From the NCBI RefSeq assembly GCF_024158605.1, contig NZ_JAMZGM010000040.1, positions 1 to 33,858 on the forward strand: 33,858 nt of DNA. Direction: 5' to 3'. The notes under the pieces are model-generated. The model worked only from the letters and a program-made list of their open reading frames with translations, was not told the DNA's origin and did not search any database. Positions within the stretch are counted from its first letter, which is position 1; every line of letters starts with the position of its first letter. Source of the DNA: Sebaldella sp. S0638 (lineage in GTDB: Bacteria > Fusobacteriota > Fusobacteriia > Fusobacteriales > Leptotrichiaceae). Below are positions 3,321-19,125 of the stretch, piece after piece. The position numbers and the translations under genes are program-made.

Positions 3321-5408
3321 TTATTCCTTATATGGAATTACTTCTATTTCCATTTTCTCAAAACTTGCACTGGTTACAAATACTTTTAACGTGTTTCCTA
3401 TTGTATACTCCAGACCATTATGCGTATTTATCATTTTGTAGTTTTCTTCATCATACATATAGTCGTCTTGTTCTCCATGTATATTATAAACCACTTCAAC
3501 ATGATTTTCCAGTTCCATAAATATCTTGCTTTTATTCATTCCGCTTATTCTTGCCACAAATACTTCTCCGACTTTATCCTGCATGTACTCAATTAATTTT
3601 ATTTTTATACTTTCCTCTTCCATTCTGTCTGCATCTCTTTCAGTTTTGGAAATATGCTTGGAAATCAATTCATATTCAGAAAGCATTTCTTCTTTTTCCT
3701 TTTCTTTTATAAATTTCTCAAGCGACTTGCCAAGTACCCTGTGCACTATCAAATCTGAATATCTTCTTATCGGCGATGTAAAATGCAGATAAAATTTTGA
3801 TGATAACCCAAAGTGTCCAAGATTTTTGTTGTTATATCTGGCTCTCTGCATAGCTCGTAAAATCAGCTTATGTATCAGATACCCTTCGTCAAGATCCTTT
3901 GTTTTCTCTATTATAGTCTGAAATTTTCCAGGATGTATGTCTTCCAGATTTTTCAGGTGATATCCGAATTTTATCAATGTGTCATTCAGAGTTTTTATCT
4001 TTTCCTTGTCAGGATCTTCGTGGACTCTGTATATAGCCGGAATTTCTTCCCAGAATAACTTTTCCGCTACAGCCTCATTTGCTGCAACCATGAAATCTTC
4101 AATTATTCTTTCAGATTCTCCTCTTTTTCTCAATTCTATATCTTTCACGCTTTTGTCATCATTTAATACTACTTTTATCTCAGGAAGCTCAAAATCTATA
4201 CTTCCTCTTCTTTTCTTTGCCTCTCTCAAAAGCATTGATAATTCAAGCATTTCAGTAATCATTTCTTTTATATCCTGATATTCTGCATTTGCTTCTTCTG
4301 ACTCTGCTATGATTTCATTTACTTTCGAGTATGTCATTCTGTGCTTTGATTTGATTACTGACTTATAAAAATCATTTTTCACTACTTTTCCGCTGTTATC
4401 AAAGTGTATTTCAGCTGAAAAAGTCAGCTTATCCTCATTTGGATTAAGCGAACACAAATCATTCGAAAGCTTTCTCGGGAGCATTGGTATTACTCTGTCC
4501 ACAAGGTATATCGAGTTCCCTCTTTTCAATGCCTCTTCATCCAGCTTTGTTTTTTCTTTTACATAGTGGGAAACATCCGCTATACTTACTATCAGTCTGT
4601 ATCCTTCAGATGACTTCTCCACATAAACAGCATCATCAAGGTCTTTTGCATCAGAACCGTCTATGGTAATAATGTCCAGATCCCTAAGATCCTTTCTCCC
4701 GTTCAGATCAACAGCATTTAATTTCTCCATTTTTGCCAATTCTGCTTCTACTTCATCAGAAAATTCCTCGCTTATTCCGTTATTAATAAGAATAGCATTT
4801 ATAAGGGCTTCTGTATCATGAGGATCACCAAGGATACTTATTATTTCACCTTCCGGCTTTCTGTCCTCATCTCCCCAGAAGTAAATTTTTACTGCAACAA
4901 GGTCACCGTTTTTGGCTCCTCTTACTTTTTTCTTACTTACATAAACATCTCTTCCCATTGCTTCTCTAGGCAGAACAAAACCAAAATTATCATTTTGCTG
5001 ATAAACTCCGATTATTACATTTTTGGCTCTTTCTACTATTTTGTATACTTCGCCTTCTCTGCTCTTTCCTGCCTTTGCCTCTTTCAAAATTCTCACAAGA
5101 ACGGTATCACCGTTCATTGCTCCTTTCAAATACGGCCCGGGAATAAATATACTGTTTTCTCCTTCCAGATCCAAAAAGCCGAATTTCCCTGTTGTAATGG
5201 AAATATCTCCTCTTATATACCCTTCTTTTTCAGGAAGTGTATATTTACCGCTTTTTACCAGAAGTATTTCGCCTCTGTCTATCCATTCTTCCAGAAGCTG
5301 TTTATTTTTTTTCCTGCTTTTTTTAGACCATCCAAGACTGCTGATTATTTCATTATATGTCATGGATTTATGCTCTAAAAGCTCTTTTAAATCTTTCAAT
5401 TCTCTCAT
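3321..5408 (-). CDS. rnr: Ribonuclease R
   Basis: A 695-residue processive 3'-5' exoribonuclease of the RNase II/R family that degrades structured RNA, including defective mRNAs from trans-translation. An N-terminal helical winged-helix region (1-60) and cold-shock-type RNA-binding domains (about 60-190) precede the RNB catalytic domain. Its Mg-binding aspartates are D250, D256, D258 and D259 in I-D-G-S-D-A-K-D-L-D-D-A. The family signature F-T-S-P-I-R-R-Y-S-D-L appears around residue 560, and an S1 domain closes the protein (about 620-692). The ATG overlaps the yqeK stop as ATGA, so the two are translationally coupled. Confidence 0.96.
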   Translation of the reverse strand: MRELKDLKELLEHKSMTYNEIISSLGWSKKSRKKNKQLLEEWIDRGEILLVKSGKYTLPEKEGYIRGDISITTGKFGFLDLEGENSIFIPGPYLKGAMNGDTVLVRILKEAKAGKSREGEVYKIVERAKNVIIGVYQQNDNFGFVLPREAMGRDVYVSKKKVRGAKNGDLVAVKIYFWGDEDRKPEGEIISILGDPHDTEALINAILINNGISEEFSDEVEAELAKMEKLNAVDLNGRKDLRDLDIITIDGSDAKDLDDAVYVEKSSEGYRLIVSIADVSHYVKEKTKLDEEALKRGNSIYLVDRVIPMLPRKLSNDLCSLNPNEDKLTFSAEIHFDNSGKVVKNDFYKSVIKSKHRMTYSKVNEIIAESEEANAEYQDIKEMITEMLELSMLLREAKKRRGSIDFELPEIKVVLNDDKSVKDIELRKRGESERIIEDFMVAANEAVAEKLFWEEIPAIYRVHEDPDKEKIKTLNDTLIKFGYHLKNLEDIHPGKFQTIIEKTKDLDEGYLIHKLILRAMQRARYNNKNLGHFGLSSKFYLHFTSPIRRYSDLIVHRVLGKSLEKFIKEKEKEEMLSEYELISKHISKTERDADRMEEESIKIKLIEYMQDKVGEVFVARISGMNKSKIFMELENHVEVVYNIHGEQDDYMYDEENYKMINTHNGLEYTIGNTLKVFVTSASFEKMEIEVIPYKE

Positions 5409-6518: not shown

Positions 6519-7535
6519 CTAATAAAAGTGTTTTCTGACACCTTCAGCTATAGATTTAGCTACTACCCTTTTATAATAATCATTCCCAAAATATGACATA
6601 TCTCCGGAATTAGATATAAATCCTATTTCTACCAGTATTGAAGGAGACTTGCTTCCTCTTAATACCGCAAAATTAGCTCCGAAGACACCTCTTTTTCTCA
6701 GTCCTATATCACCAACCATATTATCCAGAACATCTGTAGCTACTGCAGCACTTTTCTGCTGATTAGCCCTGTAAAATATATCGTTTAAAATAAAATCCGA
6801 TACAGGCTCTGTTACTCCGTATTTAGAATCCACACTATTCTCAAATTTTGCTACTTCAGCTGCATATGATGATTCTTTTTTTGAGTAATAGAATACTTCT
6901 GCTCCGTTACCTGAGCTGTTTGAAGCGGAATTTAAATGAATACTTATAAAGAAGTCAGCATTGGCATCATTACCTATATCTGCTCTTTCACCAAGCGGTA
7001 TAAATACATCGCTGTCTCTTGTCAAAATTACTTTATAGTCGTTTCTTAATTCACTTGCCAAATATCTTGCCACATCCAGCGCTATATCTTTTTCTCTGTA
7101 TCCGTTCCCGGTTGCACCTGAATCTTTTCCTCCATGGCCGGCATCTACTATTATAGTATATTTTTTCTTTGCTGCTGTCGCCTTAGTGAAGGTAACTCTT
7201 AATTCTCCTCCGAAAACTGCTACTTTGTAGTCTACCCCTCTTGCAAGGTATATTGTCGTACTGACTGTATTGTTCAATGTGCTCATAGCCACTGTATCTA
7301 CGAATTTATCATTTATATTCAGTGTATTTGGCACTGTTTTACTTATTGTTGAATTAGAAAACTCTATTACTAATGCATCCTGTCCTTTATCATATCTGGT
7401 CTTATACTGCGGAACTTTTTTTTCTTTAAAGAATATAGAATAAGTTCCTGATTTATATGTAGTTCTGTCTAAAGTTTCACCTAACAGAGTAAAACTAAAT
7501 AAAATAATTGACATTAATATAACTATTTTTTTCAT
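6519..7535 (-). CDS. amiC: N-acetylmuramoyl-L-alanine amidase, AmiC type
   Basis: A 338-residue exported zinc amidase that cuts the bond between N-acetylmuramic acid and L-alanine, typically to separate daughter cells. It has a signal peptide (1 to about 20), a beta-rich N-terminal AMIN-like targeting domain (about 25-120), and an Amidase_3 catalytic domain (126-336). Zinc ligands and catalytic residues are H134 in D-A-G-H-G-G-K-D, E148 in R-E-K-D, H200 in S-I-H-L-N-S, and E303 in V-E-I-G-F-I-S-N. It follows yajC by 23 bases and is followed closely by the GerMN gene. Confidence 0.93.
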   Translation of the reverse strand: MKKIVILMSIILFSFTLLGETLDRTTYKSGTYSIFFKEKKVPQYKTRYDKGQDALVIEFSNSTISKTVPNTLNINDKFVDTVAMSTLNNTVSTTIYLARGVDYKVAVFGGELRVTFTKATAAKKKYTIIVDAGHGGKDSGATGNGYREKDIALDVARYLASELRNDYKVILTRDSDVFIPLGERADIGNDANADFFISIHLNSASNSSGNGAEVFYYSKKESSYAAEVAKFENSVDSKYGVTEPVSDFILNDIFYRANQQKSAAVATDVLDNMVGDIGLRKRGVFGANFAVLRGSKSPSILVEIGFISNSGDMSYFGNDYYKRVVAKSIAEGVRKHFY

Positions 7536-16555: not shown

Positions 16556-17170
16556 TCATTTTATCCTTCTAAATTTATCTCCTCTAAAAACAAGATCGGG
16601 ATTTCCCCTCTCTATTCCGTTTTTAGCACTCCATATTTCCAGTTCTTTTTTGTTCAAACTGTGAGCTTCCAGATTATTCAGCTGCTCTTCGAGCTTTTTT
16701 ACCGCTGTTTTTTTGTTGGAATACTGTGTTCTTTCCTCTCTGGAAACTATGGAAATTCCAGTGGGAATATGTTTTATTCTTACGGCTGTTTCCAGTTTAT
16801 TTACATTCTGACCGCCGTTCCCACTGCTTCTCATAGTCTTTACTTCTATTGTATCTTTGCTGATATTTTTATTCACAGCTTCATTCTCATCAATTAAAAC
16901 TGATTTTATATACCAGTTTTTTCTTCTGTGGTTTTTTCTGTAACAGCTTTCATTTATCCATAAAACAGTTCCTGTATATTCATTAAGAATCTCTGTGTTC
17001 CCTTCTGTTTTCAAAATAACCGATTTGTATGTTTCCGGTTTATTTCCGGAATCACTTTCTGTACATTCATATTTTATCCCTAGCTTTACAAGCTCTTTTT
17101 CCAAATATTTCAAGTATTCATATACTGCTTTTTCACATTCTTCAGGGCCGTTTCCCGAACTTATTATCAT
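16556..17170 (-). CDS. prfH: Peptide chain release factor homologue PrfH
   Basis: A 204-residue release-factor paralogue. The peptidyl-tRNA hydrolysis motif G119-G120-Q121 sits in R-S-S-G-N-G-G-Q-N-V-N-K, the strongest signature of class I release factors, and the C-terminal tail is basic. The stop-codon recognition domain of RF1/RF2 is replaced by a shorter N-terminal region, as known for PrfH. In characterised systems PrfH releases the nascent chain from ribosomes whose 16S rRNA was cut in the decoding centre, so that RtcB can reseal the rRNA. It begins 10 bases after the rtcB stop. The ATG at 17170 is preferred over one at 17176 because AAGGG lies seven bases before it. Confidence 0.93.
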   Translation of the reverse strand: MIISSGNGPEECEKAVYEYLKYLEKELVKLGIKYECTESDSGNKPETYKSVILKTEGNTEILNEYTGTVLWINESCYRKNHRRKNWYIKSVLIDENEAVNKNISKDTIEVKTMRSSGNGGQNVNKLETAVRIKHIPTGISIVSREERTQYSNKKTAVKKLEEQLNNLEAHSLNKKELEIWSAKNGIERGNPDLVFRGDKFRRIK

Positions 17171-17180
17171 CAGCATGCCC

Positions 17181-18254
17181 TTATCTCTTAAAAGTAATAA
17201 GAGGTTTTAAAGAAGCTACAATTTCTATCATATCATGTTCAACAAGATCCTGTATTACTCTTTCTATATTTTTGTATGCTTCCCTTGATTCTTCAAATAA
17301 TACTTTTCTGTCAGAATATATGAGATTTTTATTCATCTGTATTATTTTATTTTTCCCGTGAATCTTCAGCATTCTGTCTTTCGAACCTTCACGCGTCCAT
17401 TTTCTCCCTGCTCCGTGTGAAACAGAATAGCTGTATTCAGAAAGATTTTCCTTAGGCTTGACAATATATGAAAGACTATCTCTCGTTCCGGCTATCACTA
17501 TCATCCCCATATCTGAAGGTGCTGCACCTTTTCTGTGAATATATATGTTTCGTCCGTTTTCTGCTTTTCCTGCTATCATATTATGTGAACTGTCCAGCAC
17601 TAAATCCGGTTTTTCCTTGCCGGTAATTTTCAACAGTTTTTCTGCTATTATTTTTCTGTTCACTTTTGCATATTCTGCTGCATTATCATGTTCTTTCATA
17701 TATTCGTTAAATTCAGCACTGCCCTCTTCCAAAGGAAGTGTTCCGAAACTTTCCAGATACTTTTCCAGTACAATCTGACCATATACCCTCGAACCGCTAT
17801 GCACCAAAAGCATAAGGTTATCTTTGCTTATATTTAATTTATCAAACTCATCTTTTAAATATACTTTCTCAATTTTCTGAAATTCGGCAAAATGATTCCC
17901 CGATCCTATTGTACCAAGCTTTTCCATGTATGGAAACTTATACTCTGATAAATCGGCATGGATATCTTCCAGATATTTCACCTTATTCAAATCCCTTATA
18001 AAATTTTCCCTTTTAAACTTTTTCATTCTAACATTTGTATCAAATAGGGCTATCCCGCACCCGATATCTGAGCCTGTCAGATAAGGATATATTTTTTTCT
18101 CAGTCACAAATGCTGCTCCTACAGGTACTCTTCCCGCATGTAAATCAGGCAGTCCTGTTATTCTTATCATCCCGTCAAGCTTTTCATATTTTTTCAGCTG
18201 TTCTACAGCGTTGCTTTCTATCCAAGATTTTTCATTTCTTACTATGTTTATCAA
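17181..18254 (-). CDS. rtcB: RNA-splicing ligase RtcB (PrfH-associated type)
   Basis: A 357-residue GTP/Mn-dependent RNA ligase that joins 2',3'-cyclic-phosphate or 3'-phosphate ends to 5'-OH ends. Metal and catalytic residues are visible: D63 and C66 in G-S-D-I-G-C-G, H121 in G-S-G-N-H, H152 in H-S-G-S-R, H224 in D-S-S-H-N, and the guanylated H280 in S-H-G-A-G-R. It is shorter than the canonical enzyme of about 400 residues, as in the prfH-linked branch. The start is TTG, preceded by GGGAG nine bases away; the next ATG (residue 29) would remove conserved sequence. Its ribosome binding site lies in a switchable hairpin. Confidence 0.94.
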   Translation of the reverse strand: MINIVRNEKSWIESNAVEQLKKYEKLDGMIRITGLPDLHAGRVPVGAAFVTEKKIYPYLTGSDIGCGIALFDTNVRMKKFKRENFIRDLNKVKYLEDIHADLSEYKFPYMEKLGTIGSGNHFAEFQKIEKVYLKDEFDKLNISKDNLMLLVHSGSRVYGQIVLEKYLESFGTLPLEEGSAEFNEYMKEHDNAAEYAKVNRKIIAEKLLKITGKEKPDLVLDSSHNMIAGKAENGRNIYIHRKGAAPSDMGMIVIAGTRDSLSYIVKPKENLSEYSYSVSHGAGRKWTREGSKDRMLKIHGKNKIIQMNKNLIYSDRKVLFEESREAYKNIERVIQDLVEHDMIEIVASLKPLITFKR

Positions 18255-18256
18255 TT

Positions 18257-18326
18257 TTATTCTCTCCCGTGTTATGATTATTTTTATTTTTTATTTGAGA
18301 GAATAATAGAACATGTCTATCCTCTC
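18257..18326 (-). promoter_or_regulatory. Candidate translation attenuator over the rtcB start
   Basis: On the minus-strand RNA three segments compete. Segment 1 (18326-18316) carries GAGAG and AUAGA. Segment 2 (18310-18297) ends UUAUUCUCUC. Segment 3 (18266-18257) is GAGAGAAUAA and overlaps the rtcB Shine-Dalgarno. Segment 2 pairs with segment 3 over 10 perfect bp, hiding the Shine-Dalgarno, or with segment 1 over about 10-11 bp with a bulge, leaving it free. Segment 1 is the end of the leader ORF. The pairings are seen in the sequence; the switching is inferred. Confidence 0.55.
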
Positions 18327-18349
18327 ATGCTCCACTTATCTATTTTCAT
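18317..18349 (-). CDS. Putative leader peptide of the rtcB-prfH operon
   Basis: A ten-codon ORF, M-K-I-D-K-W-S-M-R-G then TAG, on the rtcB transcript. AAAAGGAG lies nine bases before its ATG, a better ribosome binding site than that of rtcB itself. Its last three codons and the stop form the 5' arm of the first attenuator hairpin, so a ribosome finishing the peptide would cover it. The tiny length alone would not support a call; the strong ribosome binding site together with the hairpin arrangement does. Confidence 0.5.
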   Translation of the reverse strand: MKIDKWSMRG

Positions 18350-18384
18350 TAAAACCATCTCCTTTTATTCCATATACAAAATCT

Positions 18385-18414
18385 ATTCTATCATATATCA
18401 CATATATAAATCAA
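18385..18414 (-). promoter_or_regulatory. Promoter of leader-rtcB-prfH
   Basis: Minus strand TTGATT (18409-18414), 18-bp spacer, TAGAAT (18385-18390). The start near 18378 would leave a short untranslated region before the leader ORF at 18349. It lies after the hxlR terminator, so rtcB-prfH is an independent unit. Confidence 0.6.
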
Positions 18415-18429
18415 GTTTTTATTATATAT

Positions 18430-18453
18430 AAAAACAGACAGATCATAATCTGT
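18430..18453 (-). terminator. Terminator of the hxlR gene
   Basis: ACAGAT (18438-18443) and ATCTGT (18448-18453) pair perfectly around a four-base loop, followed on the minus strand by CTG and five U. It starts 15 bases after the stop codon. Confidence 0.7.
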
Positions 18454-18467
18454 GCAAACATACCTTA

Positions 18468-18764
18468 TCACAAATTATTTTCTGCCCATATTTCAATTTC
18501 TCTCATTGATTTTTCCAGTTCTTTTCCTTTTTTGGTCAGCTCATATTCCACTTTTACAGGTATTCTGGTATATACATTCCTCTTCACCAGCTGGAGCTGT
18601 TCCAGCTCTTTCAGCCGTTCTGCCAGAACCCTGTCACTCAGTTCGGGGATATTTCTTCTTATATCAGTAAATCTCATAGGATCTTCCAACAGAGTGTACA
18701 ATACCAGTCCAGACCATTTTTTCCCCAGAATCTCAAAAGCTTTATGTATTTTTATAAATACCAC
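18468..18764 (-). CDS. HxlR family transcriptional regulator
   Basis: A 98-residue winged-helix regulator. Family signatures run in order: G-K-K-W-S (about 14-18), R-F-T-D-I-R-R-N-I-P-E-L-S (about 31-43), R-V-L-A-E-R-L-K-E-L-E (45-55), and V-E-Y-E-L-T-K-K-G (about 72-80). Unlike redox-sensing members (YodB, HypR), it has no cysteine at all, so thiol sensing is excluded. The GTG start is supported by AGGGGG seven bases before it. It is followed by a terminator and faces a long intergenic region upstream of the plus-strand gene at 19218. Regulators of this family commonly act on the divergent neighbour. Confidence 0.9.
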   Translation of the reverse strand: MVFIKIHKAFEILGKKWSGLVLYTLLEDPMRFTDIRRNIPELSDRVLAERLKELEQLQLVKRNVYTRIPVKVEYELTKKGKELEKSMREIEIWAENNL

Positions 18765-18800
18765 TTTTCTACCCCCTCTGAATCACATTGCTTATACCAT

Positions 18801-18829
18801 ATTTTATAGTTTTGTCCCCAAAATGTAAA
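18801..18829 (-). promoter_or_regulatory. Promoter of hxlR
   Basis: Minus strand TTTACA (18824-18829), 17-bp spacer, TAAAAT (18801-18806). A GTAT-N3-ATAC palindrome lies a little further upstream, near 18843-18853, and could be an autoregulatory site. Confidence 0.5.
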
Positions 18830-19125
18830 TACCATAAAAAGAGTATATCATACATATAAAAAAGTATTTTTTGTCAAAATTTATCTTATAAAAAGTAAGT
18901 TAATAATTATTTTATACCGAAATTAAAAAATGTCTCTTTATATCTACAGAAATCTACTTTTTTATTGTGTATTTTTTCGCTGTTAAAATGTTTAAATTAC
19001 ACTCTAAAAAGAATTTTTATTTCATATCTGTCTGTTTTTTATGTATCTAAAATTTATGATTTTTTTATATCTTCATGACAATATCAGCCTATTTATAAAT
19101 TATATAATTGAAAATATATTTATAT
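18830..19125. other. Long AT-rich intergenic region
   Basis: About 300 bases between the divergent hxlR and 19218 promoters. Apart from the small palindrome near 18843 and A/T runs, I see no ORF with a ribosome binding site, no RNA gene and no strong hairpin. Confidence 0.6.

Follow-up and report, generated by a model that had tools for sequence, protein, structure and literature searches.

A candidate leader-peptide attenuator upstream of the rtcB2-prfH ribosome-repair operon in Sebaldella

The rtcB2-prfH operon and its leader

The stretch of DNA analyzed here (the window) comprises 33,858 nucleotides of Sebaldella sp. S0638, whose genome (G000) is 4.27 Mb in size. Two adjacent genes on its minus strand concern us:

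17181..18254, minus strand: rtcB2, PrfH-coupled RNA ligase RtcB, 357 aa, TTG start at 18254
16556..17176, minus strand: prfH, peptide chain release factor H, 206 aa

The ligase matches profiles NF007153 (465.2 bits) and TIGR03073 (362.6 bits), and its neighbor matches TIGR03072 (198.8 bits), all above the curated cut-offs. PDB relatives of the prfH product (9mor and 7sa4) are both named release factor H. The TIGR03073/NF007153 and TIGR03072 proteins are thus encoded side by side in the correct order for an rtcB2-prfH operon. Three of four genomes of the genus carry rtcB-prfH, and no match was obtained in the fourth, an incomplete assembly (86% complete). Across the phylum, rtcB2 scores above its cut-off in three of the 98 genomes searched, all of this genus. 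The RtcB proteins of the other two carriers, G003 and G002, are 88% and 63% identical to that of the window.

A gene for an RrpB-like regulator (in the window, 98 aa, 18468-18764; NF047364, 68.9 bits, under its cut-off of 175) precedes the operon in each of the three congeners. It is adjacent to the operon in two of them, and another ORF intervenes in G002. By eye, a terminator-like hairpin follows this regulator gene in the window.

A preliminary description of this DNA had proposed that rtcB2 is preceded by a promoter, a ten-codon ORF with a strong Shine-Dalgarno (SD) sequence, and pairing arms that form two alternative hairpins. These elements are all present when the minus strand is read directly. 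The list below also includes a further predicted hairpin (arms 1' and 3'), which is missing from that description.

18385..18414, minus strand: candidate sigma-70 promoter, TTGATT - 18 nt - TAGAAT with an extended -10 (TATGatagaat), from a consensus scan
18360..18367, minus strand: leader SD AAAAGGAG, read directly
18317..18349, minus strand: leader ORF MKIDKWSMRG, ten codons and stop TAG, read directly
18326..18335, minus strand: arm 1' GTGGAGCATG, within the ORF, pairing with 18315-18306 and enclosing arm 2 in the minimum free energy (MFE) prediction
18317..18326, minus strand: arm 2 GAGAGGATAG, covering the stop and last codons of the leader ORF, able to form 10 pairs with arm 4
18306..18315, minus strand: arm 3' CATGTTCTAT, pairing partner of arm 1' in the MFE prediction
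18297..18306, minus strand: arm 4 TTATTCTCTC, anti-Shine-Dalgarno, pairing with arm 2 or arm 5
18257..18266, minus strand: arm 5 GAGAGAATAA, overlapping the rtcB SD (GGGAGAG), pairing with arm 4

The codons of the ORF are ATG AAA ATA GAT AAG TGG AGC ATG AGA GGA TAG. The promoter scan returned seven such sites in the region (4.0 expected). The helix between arms 4 and 5 (helix 4:5) consists of 10 Watson-Crick pairs, and that between arms 2 and 4 (helix 2:4) of 10 pairs, two of which are G-U. Because arm 4 pairs with either arm 2 or arm 5, the two helices are mutually exclusive, as had been proposed. The window and six loci were also scanned against Rfam, and nothing reached the gathering scores.

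When the 80 bases from 18349 to 18270 were dinucleotide-shuffled with arm 5 held fixed (n = 5000), an SD helix of equal quality arose in a single shuffle, and the two-helix switch was matched in none. Switch scores were also compared among 61 SD-bearing gene starts, taken from the window and four stretches of the two congeners with rtcB starts included. The rtcB starts of G003 (21.5) and the window (20.0) rank first and second, and that of G002, for which the start was set to the in-frame ATG lying 6 nt before its TTG, ranks sixth (13.5). A short ORF with a strict SD is found upstream of five of the 61 starts; all five are rtcB-family starts, three of them rtcB2. The 4.27-Mb genome contains a single copy of the three-arm pattern, GAGAGGATA..TTCTCTC..GAGAGAA, and no match to a reversed control pattern. 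The z score of the whole-leader fold is only -1.7, and 10 of 200 shuffles fold equally well.

The preliminary description had called for a check on conservation of the short ORF, and the three congeners that carry rtcB-prfH do keep it, together with the promoter, the SD, arm 2, arm 4 (core TTCTCTC), and arm 5. In G003 the leader peptide is identical to that of the window, with two synonymous changes, one of them in the stop codon; G002 encodes MTILNKRGLRG and keeps GAGAGGATAA, TTCTCTC, and GGAGAGAAT. Between the window and G003, 31 of 33 positions of the ORF and all 10 of arm 4 are identical, compared with only 19 of 28 in the spacer 3' of arm 4. Identity across the three congeners is 6/6 in the -35 element, 8/10 in the extended -10, 6/8 in the leader SD, and 9/10 in each of arms 2 and 5. 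The three-congener alignment sets arm 4 of G002 three columns off (3 of 10 columns identical), and TTCTCTC is read directly in all three. The core pairs are invariant among the congeners and therefore give no covariation.

Predicted folding with a ribosome on the leader

The leaders of the window, G003, and G002 were folded with the footprint of a ribosome masked codon by codon. In a transcript that ends just past arm 4, a ribosome on codons 1-3 leaves helix 2:4 with a pairing probability, P(2:4), of 0.83-1.00 in all three species (0.49-1.00 with 3' footprints of +12, +15, and +18). P(2:4) is 0 from codon 4 (window), codon 5 (G003), or codon 6 (G002) onward, and the codon at which the helix vanishes moves by at most one codon either way with other footprints. 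In the free transcript ending after arm 4, helix 2:4 is favored in G003 and G002, not in the window.

Full-length RNAs differ among the species. In the window, helix 4:5 wins under every masked state (P 0.90-1.00), and P(2:4) is at most 0.09. In G003, P(2:4) is 0.07 at codon 1 and 0.86-0.97 at codons 2-3, and in G002 it is 0.91-0.96 at codons 1-4. Release of the SD from full-length RNA is thus predicted for G003 (codons 2-3) and G002 (codons 1-4), not for the window, and its sequestration by a ribosome late in the ORF is predicted in all three species. Since helix 4:5 wins the full-length equilibrium of the window even with a ribosome on codons 1-3, opening of the window's rtcB must be kinetic, with helix 2:4 forming first during transcription.

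Untranslated full-length RNA of the window and of G003 is predicted to be closed by helix 4:5, with the hairpin 18335-18326/18315-18306 around arm 2. The hairpin of arm 1' is absent from the prediction for G002, whose untranslated full-length RNA is open. The proposal that ribosomes failing to load would leave rtcB open is consequently unsupported for the window; at full length, the predicted fold of G003 also speaks against it, and that of G002 agrees with it. Because untranslated window RNA folds closed, early stalling rather than loading failure should open rtcB there. The proposed polarity, in which full translation closes rtcB and an early stall opens it, is supported. In these predictions, the choice that the leader makes between exclusive RNA segments depends on its translation.

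We conclude that the leader feature is real and that it is probably a functional attenuator. Specifically, we consider it likely that rtcB-prfH is controlled by a translational attenuator of the leader-peptide type, one that tests whether elongation proceeds beyond the first three or four codons. Healthy ribosomes would translate MKIDKWSMRG through to the stop and, from about codon 4, would cover arm 2 (18326-18317). Arm 4 (18306-18297) would then pair with the rtcB SD (18266-18257), and rtcB would be closed. A ribosome that initiates and does not elongate (with a damaged decoding center, bound by a drug, or starved) would sit on codons 1-3, disrupting the hairpin 18335-18326/18315-18306 and leaving arm 2 free to capture arm 4 before arm 5 is transcribed. 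With rtcB open, intact ribosomes could translate rtcB and then prfH. Leader translation, the operation of the switch in the cell, and the inducer are the parts of this model that we infer from the sequence.

The model resembles ermC-type translational attenuators, in which a ribosome that stalls within a short leader shifts the pairing of the arms and so exposes the SD of the gene; in full-length RNA a similar rearrangement is predicted for G003 and G002, and in the window it would have to be kinetic. Unlike those systems, the congeners have no conserved stalling peptide (MKIDKWSMRG versus MTILNKRGLRG). Any early block of elongation should suffice, because arm 2 begins just beyond the initiating ribosome. 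Direct sensing of cleaved ribosomes is plausible. Cleavage by colicin E3 impairs decoding, as stated by the title of a reference in the available part of PMC9223846, and impaired decoding after such cleavage agrees with a ribosome able to initiate and unable to elongate.

Alternatively, helix 4:5 might be a static hairpin that masks the SD, with a leaky upstream ORF that feeds melting or re-initiating ribosomes to rtcB and with no sensing of stalls. The dominance of helix 4:5 in every masked state of the window is what this reading would predict. However, 9 of the 10 positions of arm 2 are kept in three species, although helix 4:5 alone would suffice, and in Gammaproteobacteria compensatory changes are seen where arm 2 pairs with an arm downstream of it (see below). 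We therefore rejected a static hairpin as the sole function, and we regard the reading in general as unlikely.

Leaders of other rtcB loci

The preliminary description also held that no leader had been described for rtcB-prfH, which proved incorrect. As given in the available parts of two papers (PMC13041342, PMC12057347), armZ (PA5471, RtcB-like) and PA5470 (prfH) of P. aeruginosa are under the leader PA5471.1, whose complete translation forms a terminator and is proposed to shut ArmZ off. ArmZ is raised by a stop at leader codon 3 or by deletion of the leader region, and the inducers of armZ are ribosome-targeting drugs and translation defects (PMC13041342, PMC12057347; available parts). In the portions available, the 2025 review (PMC12057347) states that the attenuation mechanism of PA5471.1 still needs confirmation and that anti-repressor control by a leader peptide appears unique to MexXY. 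The word "leader" is absent from the available parts of PMC9223846 and PMC1586002, both of which concern RtcB2-PrfH. Leader control of rtcB-like-prfH operons is already known in one species, P. aeruginosa; the window contributes an RNA of unrelated sequence from a different phylum, and its action is probably at the level of translation.

Both leaders place a short, SD-led ORF directly upstream of an rtcB-like gene and prfH. They also share a polarity, reported for PA5471.1 in the partial sources above and predicted for the window, in which full translation turns expression off and an early block or stall turns it on through alternative RNA segments. This likeness raises the possibility that, as proposed for PA5471.1, alternative hairpins in the window decide termination of transcription before rtcB. 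PA5471.1, as presented in those sources, is the closest described leader, and in the two congeners the leader of a stand-alone rtcB has a terminator-like hairpin and T-run behind it. In contrast, no terminator-like site was found on the minus strand from 18100 to 18900 of the window, and arm 5 is the SD itself, followed by AATTG and not by a T-run. Transcription attenuation is thus very unlikely here, and the window leader, which lacks a terminator and masks an SD, probably acts on translation instead.

The stand-alone second rtcB of G003 and G002 (379 aa) has an SD-led leader of 30 or 29 codons, respectively, about 205-218 nt upstream (L030, about 4415-4640, plus strand; L031, about 6600-6830, minus strand). 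Its terminator-like hairpin and T-run (AGTAAGGTGCTTACCTTACTTTTTTT in G003) lie directly before the gene, which makes this leader a candidate transcription attenuator. A search for such a stand-alone copy in the window's genome gave no match.

The RtcR-activated rtcAB operon of E. coli is sigma-54 dependent. The window differs in having a sigma-70-like promoter and an RNA leader instead of a protein activator, and in its rtcB family. Activation of E. coli rtcAB by RtcR is nevertheless a case of induced control of an RNA-repair ligase (PMC5175333, available part).

Beyond the genus, a scan of genome contigs for RtcB yielded eight loci, all distant (34-45% identity), and distant rtcB2 loci likewise have SD-led short ORFs. 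A GGQN search downstream of one set of rtcB loci was too strict, in that L082, a known prfH carrier, gave none. A scan of viral contigs found one partial E. coli-like rtcB locus, which was left out of the analysis. In the order of Algicola, E. coli-type RtcB2 (E <= 1e-60) is present in 36 of the 394 genomes drawn.

Of 44 gammaproteobacterial rtcB2 loci that were scanned, three E. coli chromosomal alleles among them, 42 share a sequence-conserved leader module (criterion: arm 2 within 2 of 9 mismatches of CTTTGCAGG; L118 and L120, at the same places as L020 and L083, are not counted). Its arm 1 is the leader SD within CTGYAAAGGAG, arm 2 is CTTTGCAG, 18-24 nt after the start of an ORF of 12-16 codons, arm 3 is a later CTGCCAA, and arm 4 is the rtcB SD, often GGAATTGG. 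Arms 3 and 4 were taken as the best matches to a consensus built from these same loci. Four gammaproteobacterial loci outside the 44 (L084-L087) lack such a module; by eye, L084-L086 have no clear leader (for L084, also further upstream), and L087 has a candidate leader, MQQLHLQYLFGI. A loose pattern of arm 1, start, and arm 2 gave 24 matches in 17 of 22 carrier genomes; these are not all at rtcB2, and the pattern alone is therefore unspecific.

Each locus's own arms were compared with arms dealt out among 28 loci that remained after pruning, in 5000 permutations that keep composition but not relatedness (L145 and L146, with SD-led short ORFs and 5 and 4 mismatches in arm 2, were excluded). 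The observed value was reached in 0 (arms 1:2), 0 (2:3), and 78 (3:4) of the 5000 permutations and, after stricter pruning to 15 loci, in 13, 0, and 61, respectively, so that arms 3:4 have the weaker support. In 24 loci, helix 2:3 is paired in 162 of 168 cells, 20 of them changed on both sides, and sliding the helix by 1-3 bases gives 0-6 both-side-changed cells. This set excludes L117 and L140, for which the choice of arm 3 looks wrong, and the deviating L113 and L124; with these four, all 28 loci give 178 of 196 cells and 22 both-side changes. For helix 1:2, 225 of 280 cells are paired, and its five both-side changes are no more than the one to five of slid controls. Compensatory changes, which the preliminary description had suggested seeking in relatives of the window, are therefore found in helix 2:3 of the gammaproteobacterial module, whereas the core pairs within the genus do not vary.

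Masked folding puts the threshold in Gammaproteobacteria at a similar place: the mean P(2:3) is 0.91 at codon 1, 0.80 at codon 2, and 0.83 at codon 3, compared with 0.21 at codon 5. Openness of the rtcB start region is nearly flat (mean 0.37 at codon 1 and 0.31 at the last codon), so the output in these bacteria may not be SD masking alone.

Two Pseudomonas-like loci (L169 and L170) have a 13-codon leader, MQALITLCRSRLA, that carries the gammaproteobacterial module with a T-run after arm 3. Their genomes (6.2 and 6.7 Mb; locus GC 69 and 67%) are probably of Pseudomonas. These two leaders, rather than the sequence of P. aeruginosa itself, are what links PA5471.1 to the module. With the module standing in for PA5471.1, the window leader shares no arm with it (CTGYAAAGGAG, CTTTGCAG, or CTGCCAA).

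Several observations were made on individual loci. The E. coli alleles L148, L149, and L150 keep the leader and arms, with distances from arm 3 to the rtcB SD of 79, 151, and 84, respectively, versus 24 in L066; for K-12 (L149) and strain 190693 (L148), the annotation lists both rtcB2 and prfH as pseudogenes. A Klebsiella IncC plasmid (L067) carries rtcB2-prfH with the full leader module, adjoining sul1. In L083, arm 2 (GCAGATCTTTTTAGC) pairs without a mismatch over 15 bp with arm 3 (GCTAAAAAGATCTGC), which lies more than 100 nt away. Elsewhere, L173 has a 14-codon leader candidate without the gammaproteobacterial module, the scan found no leader candidate at L175, and the leader region of L174 is cut off by the contig end.

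Alphaproteobacterial rtcB2 loci L157 and L161-L164 have leader ORFs of 32-33 codons, and L158 and L027 have a similar layout by eye. Leaders of this type end in a hairpin, the two arms of which vary in concert (GGTGGTTATGACCACC and GGTAGCACAAGCTACC, among others), and several hold a ATGGGCAATTC-like start in another frame. At alphaproteobacterial-type loci L069, L153, L154, L155, and L176 (the last by eye), an SD-like sequence is followed by an ORF of 13-16 codons; these ORFs are unrelated in sequence. No convincing leader was seen at L151, L152, or L165, and L160 and L166 were left out of this reading. Taken together, the comparison across loci suggests that leader control of rtcB2-prfH is widespread.

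Conserved RNA and possible biologic roles

The leader peptide might itself stall ribosomes on a specific drug or metabolite, with the specificity of erm leaders, and the window and G003 do encode the same peptide. However, the peptide of G002 differs, those of the gammaproteobacterial loci vary too, and the frame in which TTTGCAG is read there also varies (Leu-Cys-Arg versus Phe-Ala-Gly). Because both peptide and frame vary, it is the RNA rather than the peptide that is conserved, and we view an arrest peptide as highly improbable. A chance arrangement without function, to which the AT-rich leader and modest whole-fold z score might point, was rejected given the absence of an equal switch among 5000 shuffles, the single occurrence of the pattern in the genome, and conservation in three species; we accord it hardly any probability. 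Amino-acid attenuation was rejected as well, there being no repeated codon in the leader.

A translational attenuator that tests elongation past codon 3 or 4 thus remains our preferred reading of the window leader. A broader reading, which we advance tentatively and as a whole, is that leaders of this kind are the general control of rtcB2-prfH. Gammaproteobacteria (E. coli, Klebsiella, Proteus, and others) would share one RNA module, and Fusobacteria would apply the same logic to the SD with an unrelated RNA. PA5471.1, known only as a drug-response switch for mexXY, would be a co-opted member of the module, and Fusobacteria would have evolved a second, terminator-based leader for stand-alone rtcB. 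Under this reading, the leader would sense decoding-center cleavage directly, because what it tests is A-site decoding itself.

In the literature searched, P. aeruginosa is the only species for which we found it explained how cells turn on rtcB2-prfH to repair ribosomes that have been cut in the decoding center. The comparison would also recast the PA5471.1 response as one case of a widespread control. The idea can be tested in laboratory E. coli, where the module is present at the rtcB2 locus even though the K-12 genes are annotated as broken, and the predicted threshold, at codon 3-4, is sharp enough to be falsified. Provided that the switch behaves as predicted, the operon would read the very failure it repairs and would need no protein sensor.
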